Below are positions 6,768 through 50,355 of a stretch of 64,000 nucleotides of DNA, in pieces. How positions within the stretch are numbered: the stretch's first letter is position 1; each line of letters opens with the position of its first letter. A model generated the notes under the pieces. It did no database searches, had not been told where the DNA came from, and was given only the letters and a program-made list of their open reading frames with translations. The position numbers and the translations under genes were made by a program. The DNA comes from a virus: the IMG/VR virus record IMGVR_UViG_3300027759_006101, positions 186,001 to 250,000 of that record; one strand, 5' to 3'.

Positions 6768-7352
6768 ATGGATAAATTATTAAAGGTTGCAAGTTTATTA
6801 GATAATCTTGGTAGTTATGTTTTATCTGATAAGTTATATAAGATTGCTGAATTGTATATTCCTCCTGTTGAATTTTATGAGGGTGTTGACAAGAGGCATT
6901 ATAATGATTACAGGGCTCCGGGAAGTAAATCTTATGATGAGATGATGATTTCTCGAATGAAGAATATGCCTAAGAATTTATCAGGTACAGCCGTTATGGA
7001 TGGCAGTATGTATCGTGACAATCCATATACTCCGAAAGAAATATTAGATATTAGAAAAAAATTAATCCCTACTAATTTCAGGAATGAGATTAGTCGTTAT
7101 GAGAGTGGGGATAGTGTAAGTAACAGTAGTAATCCGAGAAGTTTTGTTACTAGTTTATTTGAGTTTGGTAGAAAGAATGGGATGAATAATTTGACAGCTG
7201 CTTTTGATGCTTATGCTGATAGTGGTGCAACATATAATAATCAGAGTATAAAGAATATCCCTCAATTAAAGAAATTATATATGCAGATAAAATCTAATCC
7301 TCGAATGTTTAGTGAGACAGAAATTGGAGATATGTTGGAAGTTTTGTTTTAA
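6768..7352 (+). CDS. Tagged hypothetical (probable virion) protein
   Basis: A 194-residue protein of unknown fold. Its N-terminus, VASLLDNLGSYVLSDKLYKI followed by A-E, is closely similar to that of the gene at 9233 (LAEHFDNCGDYELSDKLFKI followed by A-Q), while the bodies of the two proteins are unrelated. The remainder is hydrophilic, with Asn/Ser-rich stretches. It is transcribed from its own promoter and ends at a bidirectional terminator. I infer a virion protein from the shared N-terminal segment; no function can be assigned. Confidence 0.7.
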   Translation: MDKLLKVASLLDNLGSYVLSDKLYKIAELYIPPVEFYEGVDKRHYNDYRAPGSKSYDEMMISRMKNMPKNLSGTAVMDGSMYRDNPYTPKEILDIRKKLIPTNFRNEISRYESGDSVSNSSNPRSFVTSLFEFGRKNGMNNLTAAFDAYADSGATYNNQSIKNIPQLKKLYMQIKSNPRMFSETEIGDMLEVLF

Positions 7353-9232: not shown

Positions 9233-10294
9233 ATGGAAAACTTTATTTATTTAGCTGAACATTTTGACAATTGTGGTGATTACGAGCTTTCAGACAAACT
9301 ATTTAAAATAGCGCAATTAAGTACAGTCCTTCCAAATAATTCCAAAGGAATTCCAAAATATTTAAAAGCCTTAAATCCTATGATGGGAATAGCTTTATCT
9401 CCCGAAGGTTTAGCTATTGAAAAAAAAGTTATAGATGAAGCTCAAGCTAATCCAGTTTATCAGGGAGCTAGTAAAGTTCAAGAATTATCAGAACAAGTTA
9501 AATCTCCTGTAAGTAATGCAAAAACAATTGCTTCAATTGGAAACTTAACAGGTTGGTTTACTAAAAATATTCCCTCAATGATAAAAACATTAGATGCTGC
9601 TGAACAAAAGCTTGATGTGTTTAGTAAGTATCCACTTGCACAAAAAGTTTTTCAAACTTTAGACATTGTAAATCTTATCAAAGATTCAGTTGAATTTTTA
9701 ACAAATATTTATAAGTCGGGATTTAATGCAATGTATAAAAATGACCCAGGCGGAGTAACAAAATATTTAGCTAGGATCGTTAGTACTTTTACAAATCCAA
9801 ACTTGACAAAATATTTTCCTCCTATATTGCCATTACAACCACAATTGATGGCTTTAAATACATTAAGTTCGGGAATGGGTTTAATGGTTAGTGGAGCAGA
9901 ATCCCTTGGAACATTTTATGGAAATATGGAAAATAAAGGTAGTAATAGAATAGAACAAATTCCACAAGCACAAGCATATACTAGCCAAGGAATGAAAGCT
10001 AAAGGTGCCACGATGCCATTAGATGAATTAGCGCTAAAGTATGGTGAAGTTTATAATGTTTTGTTAGATTATGTAAATAAAAAAGCCACAGTTCCAGAAA
10101 TGATTACAAAACTTGGCAATGAGCCTGGAAGAATGGCTTTGATGAGTGCTCACATTGCTCAAGGTATTCTTCCGCCAGCAAATGGACAGTATCAAATTTC
10201 CAGCTACAAGAGAGCCCGTGATCAAGCTCAAAAACAAAATCAAAAGAATTATGTTTACAGTCCTGGATCTGGAGGAATGGGATATTCAAGATAA
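9233..10294 (+). CDS. Tagged hypothetical (probable virion) protein
   Basis: A 353-residue protein. Residues 1-28 form the shared N-terminal segment ending SDKLFKIAQL. The rest is mostly helical with moderately hydrophobic stretches (PNLTKYFPPILPLQPQLMAL, MGLMVSGAESLGTFYG) and a Gln/Lys/Gly-rich tail ending GSGGMGYSR. No domain is recognised. The amphipathic helices and tag suit a structural or ejected protein, but that is an inference. Confidence 0.65.
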   Translation: MENFIYLAEHFDNCGDYELSDKLFKIAQLSTVLPNNSKGIPKYLKALNPMMGIALSPEGLAIEKKVIDEAQANPVYQGASKVQELSEQVKSPVSNAKTIASIGNLTGWFTKNIPSMIKTLDAAEQKLDVFSKYPLAQKVFQTLDIVNLIKDSVEFLTNIYKSGFNAMYKNDPGGVTKYLARIVSTFTNPNLTKYFPPILPLQPQLMALNTLSSGMGLMVSGAESLGTFYGNMENKGSNRIEQIPQAQAYTSQGMKAKGATMPLDELALKYGEVYNVLLDYVNKKATVPEMITKLGNEPGRMALMSAHIAQGILPPANGQYQISSYKRARDQAQKQNQKNYVYSPGSGGMGYSR

Positions 10295-12287: not shown

Positions 12288-12746
12288 CTAGAAATCTGAG
12301 TCTTTATCAAAGTATCCTTTCTTGTCATCACCATACATATCTTCATCGTCTTCTGGTGATTCATAGTCGAATTCATCTTCTTCAGGTCCCATATCGAAAT
12401 CATCTTCCATATCTTCGGCATATTCATCATCTTCATCAAATGACATTTCTGATGCTCTGCCAGATTCTTGATTTAGGATATTCATAATAGAAGAAATATC
12501 CTCGTCATTAAGATCGCCTTCAGAATGTGCCTTCATAAGAGAATCAATAAGTGTGTCAAATTCATCTGTTTTAGCATCCAAATCATCTGAAGCTTCGTCA
12601 TCTGGATTGTATACCATAGGATCGAATTTATCGTCCATCATATCTTCGGCTATTTTTGTCAAAGAGTTTGCTTCGCCGTGAAGTTTAGAATTGTCAAGAA
12701 GGTTTGCAATCTTGATTAATTCTTTAGTAATTATCAATCTGTTCAT
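12288..12746 (-). CDS. Tagged, highly acidic protein
   Basis: A 152-residue protein. Residues 9-34 carry the N-terminal segment (LIKIANLLDNSKLHGEANSL, then TKIAEDM). The remaining two thirds are extremely rich in Asp and Glu (runs such as DEDDEYAEDMEDDFDMGPEE), giving a strongly negative tail. Such tails are seen in DNA mimics, scaffold proteins and chaperone-like virion proteins. No specific function is claimed. It is divergent from the glycosyltransferase gene. Confidence 0.65.
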   Translation of the reverse strand: MNRLIITKELIKIANLLDNSKLHGEANSLTKIAEDMMDDKFDPMVYNPDDEASDDLDAKTDEFDTLIDSLMKAHSEGDLNDEDISSIMNILNQESGRASEMSFDEDDEYAEDMEDDFDMGPEEDEFDYESPEDDEDMYGDDKKGYFDKDSDF

Positions 12747-19837: not shown

Positions 19838-20344
19838 ATGAAAAGACAAATTATAGCAAAAATTAATAATATTGCTAATCAATTAGACAGTAGCGGGTTT
19901 TACGTTGAAGCAAATGCTCTTACAAGCGTAATGAAGAAATTGGCTTTTGACCGTGATTTTGACGAAGAAGGCACATACGACGAAATGTTTGGGGAAATGG
20001 ATGATGATCGTGAGCCAAACCTTCCTGATCCACCTGGAAATAACTCAAATGTTGCAGTGCGCAAAGGTGATAGAGGTTTTTACGTAAGTGCAACCTTATC
20101 AACAGATAAAGATAATATTTATCTTGGCGAAAAACATGGAAGAGAATCAGCTGGAGGATACATGGCCAAGTTTGAAAATAATAAAATGGATGCTATTGTA
20201 TATGCACAAGAATGGGCAGATGAACTTGGAGAAAAATACGATATTTTATTCACAGTTAAAGATAGAACAAAGCCAAGACCTTTTATGCCTGATACTGGTG
20301 CTATGGCGTATGAAAGAGAAAGAGACGAAAAATCTAGTTATTAA
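19838..20344 (+). CDS. Tagged hypothetical protein
   Basis: A 168-residue protein. Residues 1-37 form the N-terminal segment (INNIANQLDSSGFYVEANAL, then TSVMKKLAF). An acidic linker follows (EEGTYDEMFGEMDDDRE), then a beta-like domain with VRKGDRGFYVSATLSTDKDN. AAAGGA precedes the start, so this gene has a normal ribosome-binding site. A strong terminator follows. Confidence 0.65.
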   Translation: MKRQIIAKINNIANQLDSSGFYVEANALTSVMKKLAFDRDFDEEGTYDEMFGEMDDDREPNLPDPPGNNSNVAVRKGDRGFYVSATLSTDKDNIYLGEKHGRESAGGYMAKFENNKMDAIVYAQEWADELGEKYDILFTVKDRTKPRPFMPDTGAMAYERERDEKSSY

Positions 20345-22449: not shown

Positions 22450-22947
22450 TTACATTTCTGGCATTTCAGGCATTTCTTCTGCCATAAAATCCATTGGACT
22501 TTCTTCTAATGAGCTTTTCATTGCTGGAACTTTAAGTTTAGTTCCAGGTTGCAAAACATTTTTAGGGTTGATTTGAGGATTTAATTTTAATAACATTTGT
22601 AAGCTTATTCCCTTACGTGATGCGATTGAACTTAATGAATCGCCTTGGGAAACTGTATACACCCCAGGAGCATCTTTCCTTGGTGCTGGACCTAAATTTA
22701 TTGTTTGACCTTCATAAAGTACATTTTTAACTCCAGGATTGTATCCTTTTAATTGCATGACTGATACGCCAGTTTTTTCAGCAATGTCTCTTAAAAATTC
22801 TCTAAAATCTGTAACTTTATATGTTCTCTTTTCCTGTGCAACTTTCATAAATTCATTGTGAAATTTTGACGCTAAAACAAAATCACCATCTTGTGCGCAT
22901 TCATTTGCAATTTTATTAATTTGAGCTAATTTTTGAAACTTTGACAT
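22450..22947 (-). CDS. Tagged protein with two LysM domains
   Basis: A 165-residue protein. Residues 1-37 are the N-terminal segment (INKIANECAQDGDFVLASKF, then HNEFMKVAQ). LysM 1 is at about 41-88 (ends NVLYEGQTINLG) and LysM 2 at about 93-140 (GVYTVSQGDSLSSIASRKGI). LysM repeats bind N-acetylglucosamine polymers such as peptidoglycan. The tail is Met/Glu/Pro rich. A virion protein that docks on the cell wall during entry is likely. It is the clearest functional clue among the tagged proteins. Confidence 0.8.
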   Translation of the reverse strand: MSKFQKLAQINKIANECAQDGDFVLASKFHNEFMKVAQEKRTYKVTDFREFLRDIAEKTGVSVMQLKGYNPGVKNVLYEGQTINLGPAPRKDAPGVYTVSQGDSLSSIASRKGISLQMLLKLNPQINPKNVLQPGTKLKVPAMKSSLEESPMDFMAEEMPEMPEM

Positions 22948-36632: not shown

Positions 36633-37055
36633 TTAATCGTCAGCTCTTTTAATAAATCTTGTTTTCTTACTTGGATTATTATGTAAAGTTTCTAAGTGAT
36701 GTTTTGGAATCATATTCATAACTTCGACATGATTTTTGTCTTCATTATAAAAAATTAAGTGATCGTCATCTACTGCAGCTGGACTGTGCATCATATCGTC
36801 AGAAGTTTCTTCTCTAAAATCACTTATAGTTTCAGTATCTTCCCAATGTCCATCTTTATCCACTTCATAAGAATCAGCGTCAAATTCATCTAGAGCTTGA
36901 TTAAGATTCATAGGAAATTTCACATTATAATCTTTATCAAACTCTGAGGCTTGTTTCATAAAAAGATTATGAACTACGTTTGCTTCAATTATGTTGCCTT
37001 CGTTTTCTAACTTCTCAACTAATGATGATAAAAATCTTAATTTATTCGTATCCAT
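36633..37055 (-). CDS. Tagged hypothetical protein
   Basis: A 140-residue protein. The N-terminal segment (LSSLVEKLENEGNIIEANVV, then HNLFMKQASEF) is followed by an acidic, Asp/His-rich body. No fold is recognised. Its start is coupled to the small upstream gene by a TAATG junction. Confidence 0.6.
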   Translation of the reverse strand: MDTNKLRFLSSLVEKLENEGNIIEANVVHNLFMKQASEFDKDYNVKFPMNLNQALDEFDADSYEVDKDGHWEDTETISDFREETSDDMMHSPAAVDDDHLIFYNEDKNHVEVMNMIPKHHLETLHNNPSKKTRFIKRADD

Positions 37056-38087: not shown

Positions 38088-38369
38088 TTACTTTTCCTTT
38101 CTCCAAGTTCCACCTTTTGATTTATACTGTTTAGCAGCCCAGCCATTTGCATAAGCTGAAGGATATACATCAAATTTAGCTTTTGCTTGTGCTTTACAAC
38201 TTGACCATAAAGATGGATTGTTAGGAACGTTTTTTCCTGAACTTTTTTTCTTTTTCTTAGCAGAAACTTTCACAAAAACATCGTGAATTTCCGCTGCTAA
38301 ATCCTCTTTGCCATTATTTTCAAAAAAAGAAGCAATCTTGTGCAAACTATCGAGAATATTATTGTTCAT
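38088..38369 (-). CDS. Tagged small basic protein
   Basis: A 93-residue protein. The N-terminal segment is LHKIASFFENNGKEDLAAEI followed by HDVFVKVSA. After a Lys run it has PSLWSSCKAQAKAKFDVYPS, then AYANGWAAKQYKSKGGTW, a basic module often found in phage and large-virus virion proteins. It is probably a DNA-packaged or injected protein. It ends 1 nt before the start of the Big-domain gene. Confidence 0.65.
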   Translation of the reverse strand: MNNNILDSLHKIASFFENNGKEDLAAEIHDVFVKVSAKKKKKSSGKNVPNNPSLWSSCKAQAKAKFDVYPSAYANGWAAKQYKSKGGTWRKEK

Positions 38370-39723: not shown

Positions 39724-39749
39724 AAACGGAGGGTTTATCCCTCCGTTTT
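39723..39749. terminator. Bidirectional intrinsic terminator
   Basis: AAAACGGAGGG pairs with CCCTCCGTTTT (39739-39749) between convergent genes. Confidence 0.9.
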
Positions 39750-40895
39750 GTATTTTCCACCACTTCTTTTTCTTTTGCAATATTGTTTCTGAGAAAAGCC
39801 TTTTGGATTACTGCAATTAATGCTTCCTTTGTACTTTGTTGACCATCTCTTTTTCATTTTGCCAGTACGAGGAGCATTGTAATCTTTTTTTGCTTCTTTG
39901 AATTGATCAGATGTTTCTACTGGCTCTTTCATAAACTCTTCAAGAAATTTTTGAAAATTATCATAAATAATTTTGTATACATTTCTTCTCATTTGTTCAT
40001 TTTCAGTATGTTGCAAAATTTGTGATATTAAGTATTCACCTTGCCAACTTATATCCTTGAGTACATTAGATGCATTTAAACTCATCGGATCTTGAATAAC
40101 AAATTTTAAAGCTTTTATTATGGATTGCTTATCTAAGAAAGAATATTTTTCAGCAAACTTACTAAATACGGCTGGACTGAAAAAGTCATTTATGTCAGAA
40201 AGAAGTGTGCTGTATTCTTGAGGATGATTGACATTGTAATAAGATATAACGCTCTTTTCATCTTCACCAGTGGCCAATCTTTGGAACACTTCGTAAACTT
40301 GGTCTGGTCGCTTAATTAATGTATCAACAAATTTTGCTACTTGTTGTGCCTTTCTATCTGGAGGCAATCTCATAAATAAATCTTTTTCTTTAGTTGATAA
40401 AAAATCATATACCATCATAAGCATTAATTTATCTGGGCTATCTTTTAGTTTTTTAGTGTCAGGATCTACCAATTGTTCTTTGTATTTACTAAAATAATCA
40501 GCAGCCATATCAAGTATTAGATTGCTTATATAAGGTTTTCTAAAAGTGCGGCCTTTGTCTACTGAGTGTCTTAATTCGTGTTTGATTGATTGAGCCATAT
40601 CATCAATAGTGTCACCACGTTGCAAATCTCTTAATCCAACTTCTTTTGTTTTTGGATCAAATGTTGCTAAAGCTTTATCAGTTCTAATTGGTACAAATGA
40701 AGAAATGTAGTTTTGTAATTTTGATTTTGCTAAATTTTCATTTAATGTATGAAAATATATAATTCCAAAATTAGGACTTACACCAGATTGTAACAACGCT
40801 TCAAGTTCAGCGTCAAAGTCATAATCTTTGCCTTCATTTTCAGATATATACTTTTGTAAATCTATAGTGCCATAAGCAGCAAATTTATACCACAT
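39735..40895 (-). CDS. MWYK-start protein with HExxH zinc-protease motif
   Basis: A 386-residue protein beginning M-W-Y-K-F-A. IKHELRHSVDKG (H106-E-L-R-H110) is a zincin metal site, and the surrounding helix fits a metallopeptidase. The next ~200 residues are helical and unrecognised. The C-terminus is basic (RSGGKYK) with C-S-N-P-x8-C, a Cys-rich basic module. It is last in the MWYR operon. A capsid-maturation protease is one idea, though the motif may serve another function. Confidence 0.55.
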   Translation of the reverse strand: MWYKFAAYGTIDLQKYISENEGKDYDFDAELEALLQSGVSPNFGIIYFHTLNENLAKSKLQNYISSFVPIRTDKALATFDPKTKEVGLRDLQRGDTIDDMAQSIKHELRHSVDKGRTFRKPYISNLILDMAADYFSKYKEQLVDPDTKKLKDSPDKLMLMMVYDFLSTKEKDLFMRLPPDRKAQQVAKFVDTLIKRPDQVYEVFQRLATGEDEKSVISYYNVNHPQEYSTLLSDINDFFSPAVFSKFAEKYSFLDKQSIIKALKFVIQDPMSLNASNVLKDISWQGEYLISQILQHTENEQMRRNVYKIIYDNFQKFLEEFMKEPVETSDQFKEAKKDYNAPRTGKMKKRWSTKYKGSINCSNPKGFSQKQYCKRKRSGGKYKTEG

Positions 40896-41664
40896 CTGTA
40901 TCTGTCTCCAATGAACTAGTACTATAAGTTTGAGGTATTTTCACAGAATCCTTATATTTCTGCGTTTTATTATATGGAAGTCTCTTTAATCTGTGCTTGA
41001 CCATAAAACTATCGGGAGGAATATCGCCACTACCCATCGCATCAAATCTTGCTGGTACAAGTTCATTTGGCATCTTTTTTGATAATTCTTCTCTTTCACT
41101 TCTCGGAGTTTTTTCGTCAATTTTATAGCCGAAAGATTCAGAAGGATCATAAGATTCAACAGGTAAACCAAAGACTGAATTTCTTACTTCGAAAGCATCT
41201 TTGGAATGAACATCTCCAGAAATATACTGTATTTGAGGTTTATGATTTTGAAGAAACTTTTTCATTTCTTGATATAATTTTCTTCCCAAACCCCATTTTG
41301 CTCTTGTAATAGAAGATTCATCAACATCATATCCAGCATTTCTAAGTTCATCAGTCAAATCCATTTTATTTCTATCTGCTGGATTGATTGGTTTTTCCCA
41401 TTCTTCTCTTCCTGGTCTTAATGGATACTCATTCAAAGATACTAACTGAACAAAAGCAGTGTCTGAATAATCTTTGGCTTTAAAATCTATATAACCTAAA
41501 ACTCTACCGTAAAGATTTGCTTTTATAGAGTAAAGGTATTCATTATAGACTTCGATATCAAATTGAATATTTTTTAAGTCAAACGGCTTAGGTTTAATAT
41601 CAGGAAAATCCATATTTATTTGACCAGAAGGATCAACTCTTGTAACTGCTTCCCTGTACCACAT
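40885..41664 (-). CDS. MWYR-start protein with GNAT-like segment
   Basis: A 259-residue protein starting M-W-Y-R-E-A-V. Residues 121-134 (RAKWGLGRKLYQEM) match the acetyl-CoA binding R-x-x-G-x-G/A loop of GNAT enzymes, and HSKDAFEVRNSVFGLPVE matches the final motif. Preceding strands (VLGYIDFKAKD) are consistent. An acetyltransferase, possibly virion-associated, is plausible; no substrate is suggested. It overlaps the next gene by 11 nt. Confidence 0.55.
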   Translation of the reverse strand: MWYREAVTRVDPSGQINMDFPDIKPKPFDLKNIQFDIEVYNEYLYSIKANLYGRVLGYIDFKAKDYSDTAFVQLVSLNEYPLRPGREEWEKPINPADRNKMDLTDELRNAGYDVDESSITRAKWGLGRKLYQEMKKFLQNHKPQIQYISGDVHSKDAFEVRNSVFGLPVESYDPSESFGYKIDEKTPRSEREELSKKMPNELVPARFDAMGSGDIPPDSFMVKHRLKRLPYNKTQKYKDSVKIPQTYSTSSLETDTDVV

Positions 41665-41888
41665 TAGCGCTTATCCTCGTATCTTGGAAATAAATGACCA
41701 ACTGCTGCTTCATATAATACTCTGGAAACATCATCGTCATTAAGCGCCATTTTTCTCACTCTATCTGCCATATAAAAAATATCTACACTATTAGCATAAG
41801 GGAATATATCTTGTAAATGATCTTTCAATGGTTTAGATTCTCCATTGAAAAAATAATACTTAACTTTTCCAGATTCTCTGTACCACAT
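41664..41888 (-). CDS. MWYR-start small protein
   Basis: A 74-residue protein starting M-W-Y-R-E-S, then FNGESKPLKDHLQDIFPYAN and AAVGHLFPRYEDKR. No family is recognised. It joins its neighbours by one-base TAATG-type junctions, typical of this operon. Confidence 0.6.
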   Translation of the reverse strand: MWYRESGKVKYYFFNGESKPLKDHLQDIFPYANSVDIFYMADRVRKMALNDDDVSRVLYEAAVGHLFPRYEDKR

Positions 41889-42529
41889 TATTTATTTTTT
41901 GCCTCTAGATAAAGCTTGATAAATGTGATTTCAATTTTATTTCTTATATCTTCATCATTAGAATATGTTTCTGACAAAAGCATTTCTTCAAGTTTATCTC
42001 TGTCAATTTTTTGACCAGATATAGAACTTAATTCATAAGTAAGATTTGGTATTTTATAAACAATGAAATTTTTAAAATGATCATCTACTGGCTGAGACAT
42101 TTCATTTTCATAAGTTTCAAACCAGTCGCTGTCTATTTGATTAGCAACTTTTCTAAATAAAGGAATAAGTTCTCTTTCTTTAGCATCCAAGTTAATTCCA
42201 TTGTCTACCAATCTTCCTTGCACTTCATCAATTTCGATTGGATGCATATAAGTACTACCTCTTTCCAAAAGGTCAGACAAGAAATCAGCTGGTTTGGTTG
42301 ATTGATTTAAAATTCCCAAAACTGTTTGTTTCAATGGAGGTGAAACACTATCTAAAATTTCAGGATAGTCTCTTGCCATAGCTACTAATGTTGGAAAAAA
42401 CTCAACCTCACTTATCTCTCCGGATTCAATTCTCTGATGTAAATTTGCAAGAAGCGGATGCATTTTTACTTTTGGTTCTTCTATTTCAAAAGGAGGCTTA
42501 GAAGTGTCAATGGCTTTTCTGTACCACAT
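41888..42529 (-). CDS. MWYR-start hypothetical protein
   Basis: A 213-residue protein starting M-W-Y-R-K-A-I. Mostly helical (PLLANLHQRIESGEISEVEF). Around residues 21-55 the pattern 'L-x-x-[RK]-[IL]-E-x-G-E-I-S-E-x-E-F' recurs in the product of 43228-43989 (ADLRAKLERGEISEDEFNNL), so the two share a short helical module. No enzyme motif is seen. Confidence 0.6.
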   Translation of the reverse strand: MWYRKAIDTSKPPFEIEEPKVKMHPLLANLHQRIESGEISEVEFFPTLVAMARDYPEILDSVSPPLKQTVLGILNQSTKPADFLSDLLERGSTYMHPIEIDEVQGRLVDNGINLDAKERELIPLFRKVANQIDSDWFETYENEMSQPVDDHFKNFIVYKIPNLTYELSSISGQKIDRDKLEEMLLSETYSNDEDIRNKIEITFIKLYLEAKNK

Positions 42530-43228
42530 TTAATAATCTCTCCATTGTCTCATAGTAGATGGTTTCTTTTTTCCGTGCATTTCAAATTGCTTGATATCAT
42601 TTTTAAAATCAGCAGCAGCATCAATGTCGTAAACTTCGTCAAATACACCTTTGCCAGTTCTTACTTTAAATCTTATATTTTGAGGTTGCAACAAATGGAC
42701 AATTTCAAATAATTTTTGCATTTGTGTAAATGTTGGAACGTGTACAGCATTTACAGTCATCACCGAACCCATATTGCTTATTCTGATACCTTTGTCAAAA
42801 TAATCGTGAAGAATTTCAGTTACAGCGTCCTCTTGTTCCATAAAAGGTTGTTCAGGTCCAGAATCAAAATTTATTCTTTCTGCATAATCCATTGGGCCAT
42901 AAGCTTTATCTGGCAAGTTTCTGATATTATACTTTTCTGATATTTCTGGATTGTCACGAAGACTTTTACGAGTTTGTTCTAATACTTTATCGATATAATT
43001 GCTATGACTTGAACCTTGATGAATACCTCCAGAACCAGTAAGAATTAAGTGATGATCTCCTTTGGAATGGTCTATTTGATCAACTGGCTGAGGAATATTT
43101 GCTCTGACTAAATCTTTAAAAACATCATCTGGAACACCCGGTTTTTCAACTGGTGTAGGAGCATTTGGTTGTTCTGGTTCCTTTAGCCCAAACAATTCTG
43201 CAAGATCAATAGCAGTTCTATACCACAT
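42530..43228 (-). CDS. MWYR-start hypothetical protein
   Basis: A 232-residue protein starting M-W-Y-R-T-A-I. A Pro-rich linker (KEPEQPNAPTPVEKPGVPDD) follows. The body contains SGGIHQGSSHSNYIDKVLEQ, with possible substrate-binding loops, and ends with a basic tail. The function is unknown. Its start overlaps the previous gene's stop as TAATG. Confidence 0.6.
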   Translation of the reverse strand: MWYRTAIDLAELFGLKEPEQPNAPTPVEKPGVPDDVFKDLVRANIPQPVDQIDHSKGDHHLILTGSGGIHQGSSHSNYIDKVLEQTRKSLRDNPEISEKYNIRNLPDKAYGPMDYAERINFDSGPEQPFMEQEDAVTEILHDYFDKGIRISNMGSVMTVNAVHVPTFTQMQKLFEIVHLLQPQNIRFKVRTGKGVFDEVYDIDAAADFKNDIKQFEMHGKKKPSTMRQWRDY

Positions 43229-43989
43229 TATCTGACCTTAGAAACAAGAATTTTAACAAGAACATTTTCCAGCGCTGTATTTACGTTTCTTTGATTAACA
43301 TTGGCCTCTTCTAATGCTGTAAGAACTTCTTGTTCCGTCACTTGAATATCTTTATTGTAAGGTGAGCGTGAAGCTGCTTCTTCAATCATATCTACCATTT
43401 CAGGCACTCTTGATTTTAAATAATCATCAAAGTAATCATAGAAATCTTGGAATGGAGTTATTGCTCTAATTGCATCATTTATGGTTAAGTTATTGATTGG
43501 ATTTGCTTGAGCAAGATCTAGCAACATATCTCCTGCTTGTCCTGGGTAATTTACATCAACACCATTTTCTCTAAAAAAATCTTCTGCATCATCTTCAAGA
43601 TCTGAAATCCACATAACAGAAGTATCATCTGCGAATTCAGTTGCTTGTTCTAAAAAAGCTCTATCTTGTCCGAAAGTTTGAACACCAGATTCTTGCAATC
43701 GAGTTTGGAAATTATCAATATCTGCAGCATTAGCGACAGGAGTTGCTTCTACCATCTCAATAAAAAGATTGTTGAATTCATCCTCTGATATTTCGCCTCT
43801 TTCAAGTTTTGCCCTTAGATCAGCAAATTTATCTTTTCTTTCGTTTGGGACACTCATACCTAAAGGATCTTGTGAAAAATCAAAATCATCTGTTTGAGCT
43901 TGAACAAATTTAAAAATAGAATCTGAAGTACTATATTTGCCTTGTTTATCTAATTTGTTTGCAAGCTTAAGTAAATTGAAAATATTCAT
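43228..43989 (-). CDS. Tagged hypothetical protein
   Basis: A 253-residue acidic helical protein. The N-terminal segment (NLLKLANKLDKQGKYSTSDS, then IFKFVQAQ) is followed by an acidic region with LERGEISEDEFNNL, a module shared with the gene at 41888. The body is Asp/Glu-rich. No domain is recognised. Confidence 0.65.
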   Translation of the reverse strand: MNIFNLLKLANKLDKQGKYSTSDSIFKFVQAQTDDFDFSQDPLGMSVPNERKDKFADLRAKLERGEISEDEFNNLFIEMVEATPVANAADIDNFQTRLQESGVQTFGQDRAFLEQATEFADDTSVMWISDLEDDAEDFFRENGVDVNYPGQAGDMLLDLAQANPINNLTINDAIRAITPFQDFYDYFDDYLKSRVPEMVDMIEEAASRSPYNKDIQVTEQEVLTALEEANVNQRNVNTALENVLVKILVSKVR

Positions 43990-44558
43990 TATTTGCCTTT
44001 CAAGTTATCAGATACAGACCTGCCAGCTTCCCAATTTCTGCACGACCAGTAACGAGCTTTAGTTTTTGGCCCTGGATTATCGCAATTATGTCTAGCTCTA
44101 AAATTCTTTCTTCTATTTGGGTTGTTTCTTTTTATGCTGAGGCCTGGATCGCCGAAGTTAACTTTGATGATATTTCCCTTGTCATTCTTTACATAAACAG
44201 AAAATTTCTTTGGACCACCTGGAGTACGAAAAGGCTTATTAAGTTTCTTGCCTTTGTTCTTATCCGATGCTGTTTTATGTTCACTTTTTAAGTAATCAGA
44301 CACTCCATCAAGCATTTCTACAGCATTAGTAATCTTTGACTGAACCCAAGCCATAAGATTGCCTTCGCCTTCTTCACCTACGACATCTTCAATGTTTTCG
44401 ATTGCTCTTTCTGCTGTTTCCATTTGATTTCTGACCATATCGTATTCGTGATCATAATCATTGGAAGCAGTCTTTATCAAAGATGTAATTTTATCTGCTA
44501 ATCTATGTGCTTGATTGTTGTCAAGTTCGTTAGCTAAATCGGCTAATATTTCTAACAT
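43989..44558 (-). CDS. Tagged protein with basic Cys-containing C-terminal domain
   Basis: About 189 residues from MLEILADLANELDN, which is the tag start (a longer frame from 44618 overlaps the upstream gene and is unlikely). The segment ends ITSLIKTASND. After an acidic helical part, the C-terminal ~70 residues (KFSVYVKNDKGNIIKVNFGD, then NRRKNFRARHNCDNP and YWSCRNWEAG) are a basic module with two Cys that I have seen described only as a conserved unknown in phages and large viruses. It probably binds nucleic acid in the virion. Confidence 0.65.
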   Translation of the reverse strand: MLEILADLANELDNNQAHRLADKITSLIKTASNDYDHEYDMVRNQMETAERAIENIEDVVGEEGEGNLMAWVQSKITNAVEMLDGVSDYLKSEHKTASDKNKGKKLNKPFRTPGGPKKFSVYVKNDKGNIIKVNFGDPGLSIKRNNPNRRKNFRARHNCDNPGPKTKARYWSCRNWEAGRSVSDNLKGK

Positions 44559-44559
44559 A

Positions 44560-44958
44560 TTATATTCCTGCCTTGAAAGTAAAATCATAAGTAAAAGGCG
44601 TAAGTCCAACAGAAACAATTGGATTGTTTAATAGTCCAAATGTCACAACGCCTGTAACTGCTGTCCCTGCAGTTGATCCAATAGAGTTTAAGATTATAAG
44701 TCTTGCTGTATCTGCAAATGTTGACATTGTAGTATAAGCTAAACCACTAAAATTAGTTTCTACATAATCAACTGCATCTGAATAACTTGTAGTAGAACCA
44801 ATGCCCTCATAAAATGTAGTTAAATCAAAAATATTAAGGTATTTTTTAGTAAGGGGTGCGACTGAATTGGTCAATGTATAAAAAACTTCAACAATACTTC
44901 CAGATTTTGTGATTGAATTGATTGTGTAGTTTACAGAAACAGTTATTCCGATTGCCAT
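44560..44958 (-). CDS. Probable virion/tail protein
   Basis: A 132-residue protein rich in Thr, Ser, Val and Gly (GITVSVNYTINSITKSGSIV; TAGTAVTGVVTFGLLNNPIV). It looks beta-structured with no catalytic motif. First in the minus-strand operon that runs to 34948 with short gaps. Confidence 0.6.
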   Translation of the reverse strand: MAIGITVSVNYTINSITKSGSIVEVFYTLTNSVAPLTKKYLNIFDLTTFYEGIGSTTSYSDAVDYVETNFSGLAYTTMSTFADTARLIILNSIGSTAGTAVTGVVTFGLLNNPIVSVGLTPFTYDFTFKAGI

Positions 44959-45008
44959 AATAAACTCCTATACAAGTTATTTGTTCTTAAATCGAGAATA
45001 AAAATCCT

Positions 45009-45425
45009 ATGAAACGCTTTCTTAAATTTTGTTCAGATTTGGATGAATTAGGTTATATTGAGGAGTCTGATAAACTTTTTAACAAATATGCCTACACTCA
45101 TAATGAATTGTTGAAAAAGCAAATATTAATTCCATCTAATGTAAAATCAACTGCTACTAAAGCATATGGTTACAGAAATAAAGACATAAAATTTGGAACT
45201 ATAGAAGACATTGAAGTTGCAAGGCAGCTTACACAAAGAAGTTATCTTGAGCTTGATACTGTTTTGAAAATTCATAAAATTACAGCAAAAAAATGGCATT
45301 CTCGTAGTAAAAAAGATGACAATCCTACTTATTGGGAATATCTTTGTTATGGCGGGGATGATGGGAAAAGCTGGGCTGAAAATATAATAAAAATCTACTT
45401 ACAAAAGGAATGGAAAATTAATTAG
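45009..45425 (+). CDS. Tagged hypothetical protein
   Basis: A 138-residue protein. The N-terminal segment (FLKFCSDLDELGYIEESDKL, then FNKYAY) is related to those at 6768 and 9233. The body is Lys/Tyr-rich with HSRSKKDDNPTYWEYLCYGG, a pattern of aromatic residues around Asp-Asp. The last segment has a Trp-rich helix. No family is recognised. The non-coding RNA region begins immediately after the stop. Confidence 0.65.
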   Translation: MKRFLKFCSDLDELGYIEESDKLFNKYAYTHNELLKKQILIPSNVKSTATKAYGYRNKDIKFGTIEDIEVARQLTQRSYLELDTVLKIHKITAKKWHSRSKKDDNPTYWEYLCYGGDDGKSWAENIIKIYLQKEWKIN

Positions 45426-45432
45426 TTTGTAG

Positions 45433-45438
45433 TATAAT
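45433..45438 (+). promoter_or_regulatory. -10 box TATAAT for the non-coding RNA
   Basis: GTAGTATAATAATC begins 8 nt after the stop at 45425. No reading frame follows, so it likely starts the RNA at about 45445. Confidence 0.55.
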
Positions 45439-45444
45439 AATCTT

Positions 45445-46202
45445 GTAAGCAATTTGACAAAAGAATATGGAAATCGGTGGCTTGACGTCGTAAGATAATA
45501 ATAAAGGGATAAAGTAATTCTCTACTGCTCCCGCCAAATAAAATTGGTCAGTCAAGCAAGCTCAATCTTTGTGAGTTTCAAGCACAGAACTTGGAAATAT
45601 GGAATAAGATGAAAGCGGACTTATATACGCTGAATATAAGCCAAGCACAGCATCATCGAAGCCTAAAAGATGAAGAGTAATTATAAGGTTCGAGAAGTCA
45701 CGATTAAGAGCTTTATAGTATGATGAGAGGTTTTGCGGAAGATACAATTTAATTCCTTCCGTTATAGTCTCAAAATCAGGTCTAAATACTTTGTGGAGTA
45801 TTAGGCATTGAAGTGAGTTGTATTCCTTATCCAGGAGCAACAAGATACGCACACTTCTGTAGAGAGCGGGTATAGAATTATTAAAGAGATCGCAATCCGT
45901 TGATAAGATAACAATAATTCACTCAAGAAATAGACGTATCTCGTGTTAGTTGTAAACAATCAAAAAATAAAAAGTGTAATGCAACAAACACTTAAAACAT
46001 AGTGCAGATGCTTAAACATCTAAAATTTCACTTATGTTTAAAAGACTAACATTAGACTAGAAATGCCACTAGTTTAAAAAGGCGATTGTGTAGTTTGACT
46101 GTAAAGTGGATAAGCAAGCAATCTATAAGTTGCGAGTAGAGTAATCTTGCAAACGAAACTACAGGGCTAGAAATAATCTCATTCTAGCCCTTTACTTTTT
46201 TA
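45445..46202 (+). ncRNA. Large structured non-coding RNA (~750 nt)
   Basis: No credible gene occurs on either strand, yet many long-range helices can be drawn. GGTGG (45476-45480) with CCGCC (45531-45535) and CTTGAC (45481-45486) with GTCAAG (45551-45556) interlock as a pseudoknot. Others: CTCA with TGAG (45561/45572); CTTATAT (45620-45626) with ATATAAG (45634-45640); TGATGAGA (45721) with TCTC and ATCA (45768-45778) enclosing CGGAAG with CTTCCG; CTAAATACT (45782) with AGTATTAG (45797-45804); GAAGTG (45810) with CACTTC (45852); AAACATAGTG (45995) with CACTTATGTTT (46029), enclosing AGATG with CATCT. A promoter precedes it and an intrinsic terminator ends it at 46190. Size and setting resemble GOLLD and ROOL RNAs of phages; identity with either is not established. 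Confidence 0.72.
46164..46202 (+). terminator. Intrinsic terminator of the non-coding RNA
   Basis: GGGCTAGAA (46164-46172) pairs with TTCTAGCCC (46182-46190), followed by TTTACTTTTTT. Confidence 0.9.
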
Positions 46203-46245
46203 AGTGTCTATGATAAAAACATAGAATATTAATTTGAGGAATATT

Positions 46246-46701
46246 ATGAAAACACAATTTTTATTATTAACATTATCTTTATCTTCTTTGTGTTTTGGCC
46301 AACAATTTGGAAATAATTTTTCACAAAATCCATATTCAGAATCATATTTTGTAAAGCCTAATCAAACTTTATTAAATGCAAATGTAAAACTTAAAAAACT
46401 TCCAGGTTTTGAAGTAAACATTGATAGCTTGCATAAAGGCACAGATTTATCTGCATCAGAAAAACACAAATTGCTGATGGGTTACAATTATAAGTCACCT
46501 ATAGGTACGTTCAATTTTTCTGCCGGGAACACAAAAATGCCAGGATTTGTTGAAGATAAGAAATCACTTTCTGCATCTTATGTACTCAAAAATAAATGGA
46601 GTGATTTTAAATTTTCTTATGAAAATAATAATAATTTATTACCAAACTCTAATAAATTCAGTGACCCTAGATTAGTTGTTTCCGGTTCTTTCATTTTATA
46701 A
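46246..46701 (+). CDS. Exported protein with Sec signal peptide
   Basis: A 151-residue protein. MKTQFLLLTLSLSSLCFGQ is a clear signal peptide. The start at 46246 is chosen because GAGG lies 7 nt upstream; an upstream TTG in frame is unlikely. The mature part has alternating polar/aromatic residues (YKSPIGTFNFSAGNTKMPGF) and ends LVVSGSFIL, as expected of a small beta-barrel or outer-membrane protein. It is the second exported protein of this type (compare 16816). Confidence 0.65.
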   Translation: MKTQFLLLTLSLSSLCFGQQFGNNFSQNPYSESYFVKPNQTLLNANVKLKKLPGFEVNIDSLHKGTDLSASEKHKLLMGYNYKSPIGTFNFSAGNTKMPGFVEDKKSLSASYVLKNKWSDFKFSYENNNNLLPNSNKFSDPRLVVSGSFIL

Positions 46702-46703
46702 GG

Positions 46704-46709
46704 TACAAT
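46704..46709 (+). promoter_or_regulatory. Candidate -10 box TACAAT
   Basis: It lies 9 nt before the start at 46719, directly after the stop of the exported-protein gene. Confidence 0.4.
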
Positions 46710-46718
46710 GAACGTATT

Positions 46719-47612
46719 ATGGAAAAAACACCAGAATACGCATTAGAAGCTGGAATTGCTGTTTGGACTGCTGATAATCAAGATATTGTCAAGTGCGCTC
46801 TTGAATTAGCTACAGTATCAACTAACTTAGGATTAGTTGATACAAATCAAAACTCTTTTATGGGAATTGTTCCTACTGAAGTTTTTGGTCCAGATGGCAA
46901 TTTGATTCACGAATGTTTTTTAAACATCAATCATATGGCTTGGGGATATTTTAAGATTATCATCAAGTCAATTTCTCATTTTGAAGTAATTGCTCCAAGA
47001 CTTACTACTTTCAAGAATCAAATCTTGCTTTCACAACAAGAAGCTTTAGATTTCATTAAAGATCTTGCTACGTCTCTTGATGATTTATATCTGCTTGAGT
47101 CATTCCTTGAAAAAGAAGAAATTCGTGATGCTGAAAAATTACTTGAAAATATGCTTATTGGATATCACGAAGCAGTAAAGCACGAACTTATTTCAATCAA
47201 AGAATATATTTCTAGTTTTCCAGGCAAGATGTATATTCAAAGCACAAATAGTGATGACAAGCAATATATTGATGATATTCCTAATCGTTATGATTTAGCC
47301 TTACAACACCCTGAAAACTGGCATATCGAGTTCTTTGATGGCATCGGTACTACAGAGCAAGAAGATAAGGAATTTCGTAAGAGACTTTCAGAATTTCAGA
47401 AGCTTGAAAATCATTATGCTTGTAGGTTATATCTAGCACAGAAAATTGTGTTAGAATCTAAGCGTAGGTTGACTGTTTTGACAGATAGTGAAGTTCCTGA
47501 GCCTGATACTAGCGGTGAAGTCTTGTATGATAAAGGATTGGGACTTGCTCTTGTTCGACCTGTAATTCACTGTATTGGAATGAGAATAGATTATGAATTC
47601 TTATGTTCGTAA
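46719..47612 (+). CDS. Hypothetical protein
   Basis: A 297-residue, mostly helical acidic protein. Central helices (ALDFIKDLATSLDDLYLLES; LEKEEIRDAEKLLENMLIGY) and a C-terminal hydrophobic patch are seen. No domain is recognised. It overlaps the next gene by 20 nt and belongs to an operon ending with the Fe-S carrier. Confidence 0.6.
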   Translation: MEKTPEYALEAGIAVWTADNQDIVKCALELATVSTNLGLVDTNQNSFMGIVPTEVFGPDGNLIHECFLNINHMAWGYFKIIIKSISHFEVIAPRLTTFKNQILLSQQEALDFIKDLATSLDDLYLLESFLEKEEIRDAEKLLENMLIGYHEAVKHELISIKEYISSFPGKMYIQSTNSDDKQYIDDIPNRYDLALQHPENWHIEFFDGIGTTEQEDKEFRKRLSEFQKLENHYACRLYLAQKIVLESKRRLTVLTDSEVPEPDTSGEVLYDKGLGLALVRPVIHCIGMRIDYEFLCS

Positions 47613-48300
47613 AGATTATGCCAGAAAAACCAGCAACAAATACTCTCAGGCTCAACTTGATGTAGCAGGTAAATATTGCACAAAAATTATTTGCCTGTAT
47701 TTATTTAAAGAAATTGCGCCTGAATACACACTTGACTTGACTGAAAAATATATTTTTGGTGACATTATAACTCGTACAAATGATAAGTTTGTCCGAGCAA
47801 GTGAGAGTGAATGCAAGGGTACTAAGTTGTTTGATATGGTTTGGAATCTCAAATGGGAGCCAAACCTATTGAAAAAGAAAGGCTTAGAACAATTTAGCTC
47901 TATTTTTAAGACTGATGTTACAGGAAGTGTGGAAGTTTTAGATTATTCAAAAATAACTCAAACTTCAATATACACTGGACATAGACTTTCAAAACCAGAA
48001 GATATATTTGAATTTTATCATTTCCTCTTTCCTTTAGAAGAAGCAATGGAATGTATGAATAATAAAACTTTTCCCTCAAGGTTTATTTATTGGAAGTTGA
48101 ATCCTGAAATTTACGGACTTCAATATAAAGAAGAAATTTCATCTGATGCTGATGGAAATAAATTTAAGGAACTCAAATCCAAAGTTCCATTGAAGTATAT
48201 TGAAAGAATTACATTTAATTCTGACACAGGTAAATTTACAAGATTAGAAAAATATAAGACATACACTAAGAATGATGGAAACTTAACATATGAATATTAA
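47593..48300 (+). CDS. Hypothetical protein
   Basis: A 235-residue protein with a positively charged N-terminus (RKDYARKTSNKYSQAQLDVA). The middle has helical segments with WNLKWEPNLLKKKGLEQF. No domain is recognised. It overlaps the IscA-type gene by 11 nt, so the three genes 46719-48661 form one unit. Confidence 0.6.
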   Translation: MNSYVRKDYARKTSNKYSQAQLDVAGKYCTKIICLYLFKEIAPEYTLDLTEKYIFGDIITRTNDKFVRASESECKGTKLFDMVWNLKWEPNLLKKKGLEQFSSIFKTDVTGSVEVLDYSKITQTSIYTGHRLSKPEDIFEFYHFLFPLEEAMECMNNKTFPSRFIYWKLNPEIYGLQYKEEISSDADGNKFKELKSKVPLKYIERITFNSDTGKFTRLEKYKTYTKNDGNLTYEY

Positions 48301-48661
48301 AATTACAGACAAAGCAGCCGAATTAGTGAAAGATTCTATATCTCAAATTGAAACAGATGATCCACATCTCTACTTTTATGTAGCTGGAGGAGGTTGCTCT
48401 GGGCTTCAATACGGATTGGCTGTCTCTGAAGGTGAGCCGGAAATTGACGACATTATTGTTTATGACAATGATATCAAAATTGTAGTTGATGCAAAATCAG
48501 CAAAATATCTTGATGGTGCAATTATATGCTACAAAGAAGATGGATTGATGTCAGGATTCAAGATTGAAAATCCTAATGCTGAAAAGAGTTGTGGTTGTGG
48601 CAGTTCTTTTTCAGTTGACGGAGAAACTTATGACTCTTGTGGTGGCTGTGGATATAAGTAA
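48290..48661 (+). CDS. iscA: A-type iron-sulfur cluster carrier (IscA/ErpA family)
   Basis: A 123-residue protein. FYVAGGGCSGLQYG contains the first ligand Cys36 and CGCGSSF the second pair (C101, C103), the three-cysteine signature of A-type carriers. It hands [Fe-S] clusters to apo-proteins. Extra C-terminal Cys residues (DSCGGCGYK) go beyond the family. The radical SAM protein at 4984 is one possible client. Next to the SOD and Dps-like genes it suggests iron and oxidative protection. Confidence 0.88.
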   Translation: MNIKITDKAAELVKDSISQIETDDPHLYFYVAGGGCSGLQYGLAVSEGEPEIDDIIVYDNDIKIVVDAKSAKYLDGAIICYKEDGLMSGFKIENPNAEKSCGCGSSFSVDGETYDSCGGCGYK

Positions 48662-48873
48662 TCTTTCTTTATCCCAATAATCATATTGATAGCCTTTCCA
48701 AATTTAGTTTTACGCTGTTTTTTGGAAAGGTTTTCTTCTATTTTTTCAAGCTGTTCAACGCTCATCAACAAACAGATATCTAAACTCTTCACCATATCTT
48801 TTCTAGATAATTCTAATTCAGTGAGTTTTCTAGCCACCATTGCTTTGTAGCCGTCTGAGTCTGAATAATCCAT
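48628..48873 (-). CDS. Small hypothetical protein
   Basis: An 81-residue protein, MDYSDSDGYKAMVARKLTEL, then a Lys-rich helix. Its last ~11 codons overlap the 3' end of the Fe-S carrier gene on the other strand. It is coupled to the Dps-like gene (adjacent stop/start). No domain is recognised. Confidence 0.55.
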   Translation of the reverse strand: MDYSDSDGYKAMVARKLTELELSRKDMVKSLDICLLMSVEQLEKIEENLSKKQRKTKFGKAINMIIGIKKDYLYPQPPQES

Positions 48874-49247
48874 TACATCATTTTCAAACGATATTTTGTC
48901 TGATTTAAGATAGCAAGCATTTCATCTTTGATATTTAATAAATCAGTATCAGAATTTGAGTCTAATGATTGAGGAAGATAATTTATAAAATATTCAACTG
49001 CTTCATCGATAAATACATTGTAATCATCAGATAAATTTTCAAGATTTACAACAAAACCATTCTTGCCCATCAAAGCGCCATTCTTACCTTGAAAAACTTC
49101 TATGAAATCATCAATAAGTGGGTCAAGTGCTTCATAAGCTTTTCCGAATGCCTCGTGTTGAGCAAAAGAACCTGGCTTCTTTTGTGTTTGCCAATGATAA
49201 ACTCTAAACTGATTCTGTATTGTTAAAAGATTTGTAATTATATTCAT
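48873..49247 (-). CDS. Dps/ferritin-like protein (DUF5856 type)
   Basis: A 124-residue helical protein. The N-terminal pattern QNQFRVYHWQTQKKPGSFAQ, then HEAFGKAYEALDPLIDDFIE, matches Dps-like proteins, with H-W and H-E-x-F residues near the expected metal-binding interface. It may bind iron and limit oxidative damage to DNA. It overlaps the SOD gene by 4 nt, so both are made together. Confidence 0.65.
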   Translation of the reverse strand: MNIITNLLTIQNQFRVYHWQTQKKPGSFAQHEAFGKAYEALDPLIDDFIEVFQGKNGALMGKNGFVVNLENLSDDYNVFIDEAVEYFINYLPQSLDSNSDTDLLNIKDEMLAILNQTKYRLKMM

Positions 49248-49909
49248 TTGTAACTCTCCAAGGTTTCATTGACAAAATCCCAATTAATTAAGTTAACCCA
49301 TTTTTTTAAATATTTTTCTCTATCATTTTGATATTTTAAATAGTAAGCGTGTTCCCATAAATCACATCCGATTAATGGTTTGCCGCATTCTTCTATATAT
49401 GGATTGTTTTGATTTGCCATTGAAGACAGTTTTAGATTTCTACCATCTTCAGTGCATAACCAAACCCAACCAGAACCAAAATGATCCATTCCTGTTTTGA
49501 TAAATTCTATTTTAAACTTATCAAGTGACCCAAACTTCTTGTCAATAAGATTTTTTATAGCGCCAGAGTAGACAGGCTTTTCAGTAGTCATTACATTCCA
49601 GAAGAAAGAATGATTGAAATATCCACCAGCATTATTCTTAAACTTTTCTCTATCTTTTGCTGGAATCTTATTTAAATCTGACATTAATTCGACTAATGAA
49701 TTCTTTTGTAATTTTGAGTTTTCATCAACAATGCTCATCATATTATCAAAATATTTTTTCTGATGCTTTGTGTGATGAATTTTCATTGTTTCTGCGTCAA
49801 TTACAGGTTCTAGAAAAGAATATTCGTATGGTAATTTTTGGAATTCAAAACCGTTTGATTCTACTTTTTCTTTTTTTGATGAAAGTATTACAGTATTAGT
49901 TATAAACAT
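49244..49909 (-). CDS. sod: Iron/manganese superoxide dismutase
   Basis: A 221-residue protein. All four metal ligands are seen: H45 (IHHTKH), H100 (GGYFNHSFFW), D183 and H187 (DLWEHAYYLKY). FGSGWVWL and GCDLWEHAYY are family-wide. It has a ~20-residue N-terminal extension. It converts superoxide to peroxide and oxygen. SOD in a phage is rare, and its coupling to a Dps-like gene points to defence against oxidative burst in the infected cell. Confidence 0.92.
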   Translation of the reverse strand: MFITNTVILSSKKEKVESNGFEFQKLPYEYSFLEPVIDAETMKIHHTKHQKKYFDNMMSIVDENSKLQKNSLVELMSDLNKIPAKDREKFKNNAGGYFNHSFFWNVMTTEKPVYSGAIKNLIDKKFGSLDKFKIEFIKTGMDHFGSGWVWLCTEDGRNLKLSSMANQNNPYIEECGKPLIGCDLWEHAYYLKYQNDREKYLKKWVNLINWDFVNETLESYK

Positions 49910-50355
49910 TATCCACCCTGGACAAACACATTGTAATTACCTCTTTCATTTGGTTGATTACTCCATTGTAATTGTAAAACACCCTGATAAGAAGTTAAGT
50001 TATTAAATGCGCTTGTATTTGCTGCGCCTTGTTTGCACGATAGAATAAAGTTGCCCGGATTTACACCATTTCTAGCAGCCCACTCATTAAAGTTTTCTTC
50101 TGTGCCCATATCATTATTCTGCCCACTTAGAAAAAACTTTCCATTTTGGTCAACATTTCCGTGAACTATACTGACCATTTTCCCAGTAGTAACATCACGA
50201 ACAGTTACAGGCGCACCAGTTGTTTTGAACTGCTGAAGCTTTGGTAAATCTGCTTGAGAAATTTCTATACCCTGTCCACCACCTGAAATGGTTGATGGAT
50301 TAGAAGTAGTTGTCAAATTTTGTAAAGGCTGAGCTTGAGAATATCTGTACCACAT
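49909..50355 (-). CDS. MWYR-start small protein
   Basis: A 148-residue protein starting M-W-Y-R-Y-S-Q-A. A Ser/Thr/Asn/Gln-rich, Gly-containing body (GGGQGIEISQADLPKLQQFK) suggests beta structure or a virion accessory. No family is recognised. It overlaps the SOD stop by a base, so it is translationally linked with it. Confidence 0.6.
   Translation of the reverse strand: MWYRYSQAQPLQNLTTTSNPSTISGGGQGIEISQADLPKLQQFKTTGAPVTVRDVTTGKMVSIVHGNVDQNGKFFLSGQNNDMGTEENFNEWAARNGVNPGNFILSCKQGAANTSAFNNLTSYQGVLQLQWSNQPNERGNYNVFVQGG

Follow-up and report, generated by a model that had tools for sequence, protein, structure and literature searches.

Our study has focused on a window of 64,000 nucleotides, bases 186001-250000 of the 358,269-base virus record IMGVR_UViG_3300027759_006101, which belongs to a group of uncultured giant phages; the own 358-kb genome and its relatives were compared. 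Six genes of this window were found to begin with the short leader M-W-Y-[RK]-x-[AS], placed in front of unrelated protein bodies. We infer, with slightly more confidence than doubt, that this leader is a very short head-targeting peptide whose end is the site recognised by the head protease of the phage, so that the proteins carrying it would be packaged and then cleaved. All six starts listed in the first-pass annotation of the window are present, on the minus strand and with the full motif:

40875..40895, minus strand: short leader MWYKFAA of gene 39735-40895 (ATG at 40895), with a HELRH zincin-like body and a Cys-containing C-terminal tail
41644..41664, minus strand: short leader MWYREAV of gene 40885-41664 (ATG at 41664)
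41868..41888, minus strand: short leader MWYRESG of gene 41664-41888 (74 aa; ATG at 41888)
42509..42529, minus strand: short leader MWYRKAI of gene 41888-42529 (ATG at 42529)
43208..43228, minus strand: short leader MWYRTAI of gene 42530-43228 (ATG at 43228)
50335..50355, minus strand: short leader MWYRYSQ of gene 49909-50355 (ATG at 50355), upstream of the superoxide dismutase gene

The five MWY genes of the operon lie head to tail and each ATG abuts or overlaps the preceding stop, so their start sites are well fixed and leave no annotation choice. From the residue composition, Trp-Tyr after the start Met is expected in 0.04% of genes, that is in about 0.04 per 90 genes against the six observed, and the earlier statement that such starts lie far beyond chance is borne out. 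At the nucleotide level, ATGTGGTAY occurs 17 times in the whole genome compared to 2 (1+1) for the reversed control, and ATGTGGTAYARRNNNKCN, which covers MWY and the [RK]x[AS] part, occurs 11 times compared to 0. The genome-wide search for this start motif, which had been proposed earlier, returned 15 MWY starts opening genes of at least 74 aa in the own genome, 12 of which carry the full MWY[KR]x[AS]; this set is unbiased because Met-Trp-Tyr was the sole search criterion. Further, the leader codons vary synonymously (TAT/TAC; AGA/AGG/CGA; GCT/GCA/GCC/GCG) and therefore the constraint acts on the protein and not on the DNA.

The motif is strictly N-terminal. In the 332,166 residues of phage-group sequence analysed, WY[KR]x[AS] was found 41 times at the N-terminus (23 families) and never internally. 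When each of about 25 unrelated MWY families was given one vote, R/K at position 4 received 23.4 votes and A/S at position 6 received 22.4, the own-genome figure being the safer one as part of the relatives' set was retrieved with a pattern that required [AS] at position 6. Gln at position 7 received 9.6 votes, giving the consensus MWY[RK]x[AS]Q, and no conservation was seen beyond position 7. In a head-module family encoded beside the portal gene, M1-W2-Y3 are the sole invariant N-terminal columns, with body identity falling to 31% and some members lacking the middle. The head region of a relative also contains a protein (L076:15464-16336) starting with MYRISQYQGAVASNP, the homologue of which in the own genome (L009:5632-6498) starts with MEPNNSEGPALASNP; from its sequence this pair is a possible case of leader gain or loss.

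The bodies behind the leaders were found to be unrelated. The six window bodies form six separate families in BLAST clustering, and an all-against-all phmmer comparison of the leader-free bodies gave nothing better than E=0.02, which disposes of the earlier concern that the bodies might prove to be one duplicated family. Searches of the six bodies against Pfam and PHROGs gave no confident match, and wider homologue searches for two bodies found one and five loci only. The MWY proteins elsewhere in the genome and in the relatives carry ART-PolyVal (2.7e-10), PcfJ (2.3e-13) and NUDIX (1.5e-17) domains, and HExxH proteins and a MuF-like LHxxCHC (NCHC) protein were recognised by eye. No more than one recognisable domain was found in each tagged protein. 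Such body types (ADP-ribosyltransferase (ART), Nudix, HExxH, MuF-like and PcfJ) appear typical of injected effectors. Ten confidently identified replication and metabolic proteins, namely adenylosuccinate synthetase, clamp loader, dUTPase, both ribonucleotide reductase (RNR) subunits, ThyX, GroEL, RuvB-like protein, Y-family polymerase and RecA, have neither the short leader nor the long tag described below. The C-terminal tail of gene 39735-40895, SINCSNPKGFSQKQYCKRKRSGGKYK (last 35 residues), is missing from the 90%-identical relative L096, and therefore a tail module has been gained or lost at the C-terminus too.

A second, longer N-terminal tag was found by a profile in 24 families, and the following genes of the window carry it:

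43228..43989, minus strand: long-tag operon gene (MNIFNLLKLANKLDKQGKYSTSDSIFKFVQAQ); its homologue L112 in a related phage carries the short leader MWYRLS instead
43989..44558, minus strand: long-tag operon gene (MLEILADLANELDNNQAHRLADKITSLIKTAS)
45009..45425, plus strand: long-tag gene (MKRFLKFCSDLDELGYIEESDKLFNKYA)
6768..7352, plus strand: long-tag gene (..SDKLYKIAE)
9233..10294, plus strand: long-tag gene (..SDKLFKIAQ)
12288..12746, minus strand: long-tag gene (..ANSLTKIAE)
19838..20344, plus strand: long-tag gene (..ANALTSVMKKLA)
22450..22947, minus strand: long-tag gene with LysM domains (..ASKFHNEFMKVAQ)
36633..37055, minus strand: long-tag gene (..ANVVHNLFMKQAS)
38088..38369, minus strand: long-tag gene with a DUF5872-like C-terminus (sub-threshold Pfam match)

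Genes 43228-43989 and 43989-44558 stand beside the five MWY genes, so both tag classes do occur in one operon as was first noticed. The two tags share their ending. Taking one member per family, [KR]-x-[AS] was found shortly after the conserved A-D of helix 2 in 22 of the 24 long-tag families compared to 5.9 in shuffled sequences, while the wrong spacings [KR][AS], [KR]..[AS] and [KR]...[AS] were found in 2, 5 and 3 families respectively. The form [KR]x[AS]Q is present in 11 of the 24 (0.3 in shuffled sequences), and Gln is the commonest residue after the short leader also. The spacing likeness claimed in the first-pass annotation thus stands for the common [KR]-x-[AS], whereas the F-x-K-x-[AS] to which it was tied is just one form of the ending. 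The distance of the motif from the conserved A-D is discrete (5, 6, 8 or 9 residues). In the AlphaFold model of one long-tag protein, helices span residues 3-17 and 21-34 with a predicted local distance difference test (pLDDT) score of 81-89, mostly low-confidence chain follows, and K-F-A-Q sits at the end of helix 2.

The two tags look interchangeable in their sequences. Family 76 carries the long tag (..SDLVYKFVEAQTDNLDEDPLGIS) in the window gene 43228-43989 and in L096, and its homologue in a 316-kb relative begins with the short MWYRLSKKIIKAEDEKDPLGIS; in family 57 a comparable swap is seen less clearly, EYIKLAQ versus NYKFSQ. Because of these swaps a short start seems able to stand in for a long one, and the earlier suggestion that sorting might need the helices is weakened. 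Long-tag-like hairpins (e.g. KSMVKIAQKLDFNYQYKLADKFTNILRKY) were also seen beyond the N-terminal 75 residues of proteins of about 1000 residues (L010:8637-11492 and L010:11485-14511 in the own genome; also L124, L130, L131 and L140), and the starts of these carriers resemble short leaders (MKRYSLRIVTAG, MFNNRIVIAN). At L013:1152-3650 the own genome has five genes in a row whose long tags (MNKRQIIASLNKIANELD..) are nearly the same and whose bodies diverge.

The protease which the first-pass annotation had only assumed is present. Synteny with Tunturi_5 led to its gene, and a PHROG match followed: the gene lies between the portal gene and that of the predicted core protein, and its N-terminal domain matches PHROG 18299, head maturation protease (E=2.9e-21, residues 82-242). 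It is also similar to the annotated Tunturi_5 protease and to gp19 of Bacillus phage G, whereas the Pfam models S77 (T4 type) and S78 gave no protease match in this genome. Over nine sequences, among them phage G gp19 and Tunturi_5, His126 and Ser177-Met-Gly do not vary, which makes His126 and Ser177 the candidate catalytic residues. The protease begins MYRVAK, and a K-x-A near its N-terminus (IKTA, VKIA, LKTA) is invariant over the same nine sequences; a self-processing site at this position is plausible. In six relatives the protease is kept, as here, as the N-terminal part of a 1379-residue fusion (L159:2596-3495 continuing into L141), and in phage G it is a separate small protein.

The neighbours of the protease are enriched in the same motif. 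A 562-residue protein encoded near the gene of the major capsid protein (MCP), presumed to be the scaffold or core protein from its position and composition without a family match, contains 24 [KR]x[AS] sites compared to 10.4 in shuffled sequences, with other spacings at expectation. Its six homologues have the same excess, and K/R and A/S interchange at aligned sites; metabolic proteins are not rich in such sites. Over eight proteins from the terminase to the MCP, a conserved K/R followed by a conserved A/S at +2 was counted 84 times compared to 32-50 at eight other offsets, TerL showing no +2 excess. Such a pattern would be expected from several cleavage sites of a protease that reads P3/P1, for which SPN3US (see below) gives a precedent; a docking motif would look similar. 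The N-terminal excess of the bare [KR]x[AS] was not significant in the untagged genes of the clade and not consistent in phage G, Tunturi_5, LR745208 (a 485-kb huge phage) and Rctr197k; the fuller phage G pattern given below is the one that stands out.

These observations fit the following mechanism best. The leader would bring proteins of unrelated families into the head before the DNA is packaged, with its aromatic front W2-Y3 binding the head core. The [KR]-x-[AS] end, often followed by Gln or Ser, would be cut by the head-maturation protease during maturation, and the cleavage would free the cargo for ejection with the DNA. The long tag would be a helical hairpin with the same terminal site and the same job. 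Virion location, targeting, cleavage and ejection of the tagged proteins are thus predicted from their sequences and gene neighbourhood.

In phage T4 the head protease gp21 cuts after [LI]-x-E. The T4 capsid-targeting sequences (internal proteins, Alt; PMC9026906, PMC7411985) are, as here, short N-terminal peptides on unrelated cargo including an ADP-ribosyltransferase. Ten residues of IPIII suffice, where targeting depends mainly on residues 4 and 7 and processing on residues 8 and 10 (PMC9026906). The front of the T4 sequence targets and its rear is cut by the head protease, and the same division is proposed for the leader here. The MWY leader may be called analogous to it; there is no sequence similarity, the ending is [KR]-x-[AS] and not [LI]-x-E, and at least two dozen cargo families are found here. 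Although it would work like a capsid-targeting sequence, we do not class it as one, given its different sequence, length and cut motif. In the jumbo phage SPN3US, the protease motif is AXE at P3/P1 with Ser favoured at P1', and there are several sites per propeptide, the propeptides being mostly of 111-254 residues (PMC10052503). The jumbo phage head and the P3/P1-type motif are alike in the two cases, whereas the motif itself differs and the SPN3US propeptides are far longer. The polyvalent proteins, predicted to be injected with the DNA, have ART-PolyVal, zincin peptidase and MuF domains (PMC5512222), which are the same kinds of domain as in the tagged proteins here; however, they fuse many domains per polypeptide, whereas here single-domain proteins each have their own leader. 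No mention of the motif, or of a comparable jumbo-phage tag, was found in the literature searched, most subscription journals being outside its coverage.

The head module of phage G is comparable. Its MCP is related (47.5% identity), it has the protease homologue gp19, and short starts ending in [KR]-x-[AS] stand on unrelated proteins, with [KRS]-L at the leader front in phage G versus W-Y here. In phage G, 12 of 434 open reading frames (ORFs) begin with M..[KRS]Lx[KR]x[AS] compared to 1.4 in shuffled sequences (maximum 5), with 1-5 at other spacings; part of this count is not independent because the pattern was drawn up from the first 40 kb of the genome. The tagged bodies are unrelated, and several have by eye the YH[GH]TSS signature typical of ADP-ribosyltransferases, as in gp53 (MKRLVKAEQQ..MHGTSS). 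There is no excess of MWY starts in phage G, the long tag was not found in the 41-kb stretch searched, and ATGTGGTAYMRN showed no clear enrichment in phage G, Tunturi_5, LR745208 or Rctr197k. Common descent of the two leader systems is not established because they share the ending only. In LR745208, the ORFs L144:18704-19108 and L144:26331-27386 share the N-terminus MTTLRSKLIRLAH[ES][ND]P[AS]LRP[QH]LLPLLKEA, apparently the tag of another lineage, again ending in K-x-A.

Tentatively, a compact and swappable N-terminal packaging code may be in use in several lineages of huge phages, at least in this clade and in phage G. Its front would be specific to the lineage (W-Y here, [KRS]-L in phage G) or, for the long form, a helical hairpin, while the [KR]-x-[AS] end would be common to all and recognised by a single head-protease family. 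If this is true, dozens of separate effectors would be loaded singly and not fused into polyvalent polyproteins. For the choice that jumbo phages make among their hundreds of proteins, as to which are loaded and injected, the leader would be a label readable from the genome. Dozens of uncharacterised proteins would become candidate injected effectors, a specificity of the protease could be predicted, and a very small peptide would be at hand for loading foreign proteins into large capsids. As phage G is in culture and mass spectrometry has already been applied to its virions, going by what PMC8570332 cites, the parallel prediction there is testable at once.

Several observations weigh against a cleaved head-targeting leader. 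It has 6-7 residues compared to about 10-20 in T4, and a propeptide of six residues would fall below the known lengths. In the variant leaders MWYSRIIESA, MWYNRTILAA and MWYRKVVS, the A/S stands further along. No propeptide is obvious in the MCP, nor does it show an excess of the motif, and the AlphaFold model of the protease (pLDDT 49.8) is too poor to recognise an assemblin/HK97-type fold, with no similar sequence in the PDB. The pattern used for part of the relatives' set and the restriction of the phage G likeness to the ending, both mentioned above, belong here as well. Moreover, the motif is as compatible with docking as with cleavage, and its place in the long tags is at a helix end.

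The last of these points leads to the main rival, that W-Y-[RK]-x-[AS] is a docking peptide for a protein of the head core or shell and remains uncut on the mature protein; the [KR]-x-[AS] sites spread through core proteins would then be multivalent docking motifs. A motif at the end of a predicted helix is expected of a docking face, its distances of 5, 6, 8 or 9 residues after A-D are roughly one helical turn apart, and W2-Y3 is conserved beyond the needs of a P3/P1 protease site. On the other hand, the interchange of K/R and A/S together with the preference for Gln or Ser just after resembles a protease subsite pattern, the protease itself carries the invariant N-terminal K-x-A, and the SPN3US and T4 proteases use P3/P1 motifs; docking without cleavage is therefore considered unlikely, though it deserves to be kept in mind. 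Sorting to some other cellular site during infection, for example a compartment resembling a phage nucleus or the membrane, is much less probable, though no search was aimed at chimallin or PhuZ. Jumbo phages are able to form a compartment into which proteins are selectively imported (PMC12908238), and the tagged proteins are placed in the virion by prediction. But several of the ten untagged proteins act on DNA or nucleotides (RecA, clamp loader, RuvB-like protein, Y-family polymerase, RNR), the tagged proteins resemble effectors and some are encoded next to portal and terminase, and the MCP and protease are related to those of phage G.

Selection for expression, through efficient initiation or N-terminal stability and without any address function, may be thought of as the motif is strictly N-terminal and several of the genes are translationally coupled. 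We regard it as very improbable: synonymous codons vary freely, conservation reaches positions 4, 6 and 7, GroEL and MCP, which are expected to be highly made, are without the motif, and the motif is common to the end of a 30-residue tag, with long and short forms swapping. The explanation which we find hardest to credit is that the MWY genes arose by duplication within one family and have diverged so far that their bodies can no longer be aligned. Five of the six genes do lie in one operon and the bodies of 41664 and 41888 have a weak similarity (the E=0.02 given above), but the bodies hold clearly different domains (ART, NUDIX, PcfJ) and do not align, and the distinctness of these Pfam domains already contradicts such descent. 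A cleaved head-targeting leader hence remains our preferred explanation.

A further observation concerns the portal protein of the own genome (L009:1119-3500), which has at its C-terminus a domain resembling restriction endonucleases (PF18741, E=6.3e-9, slightly below the cut-off; DUF559, 4.3e-6).

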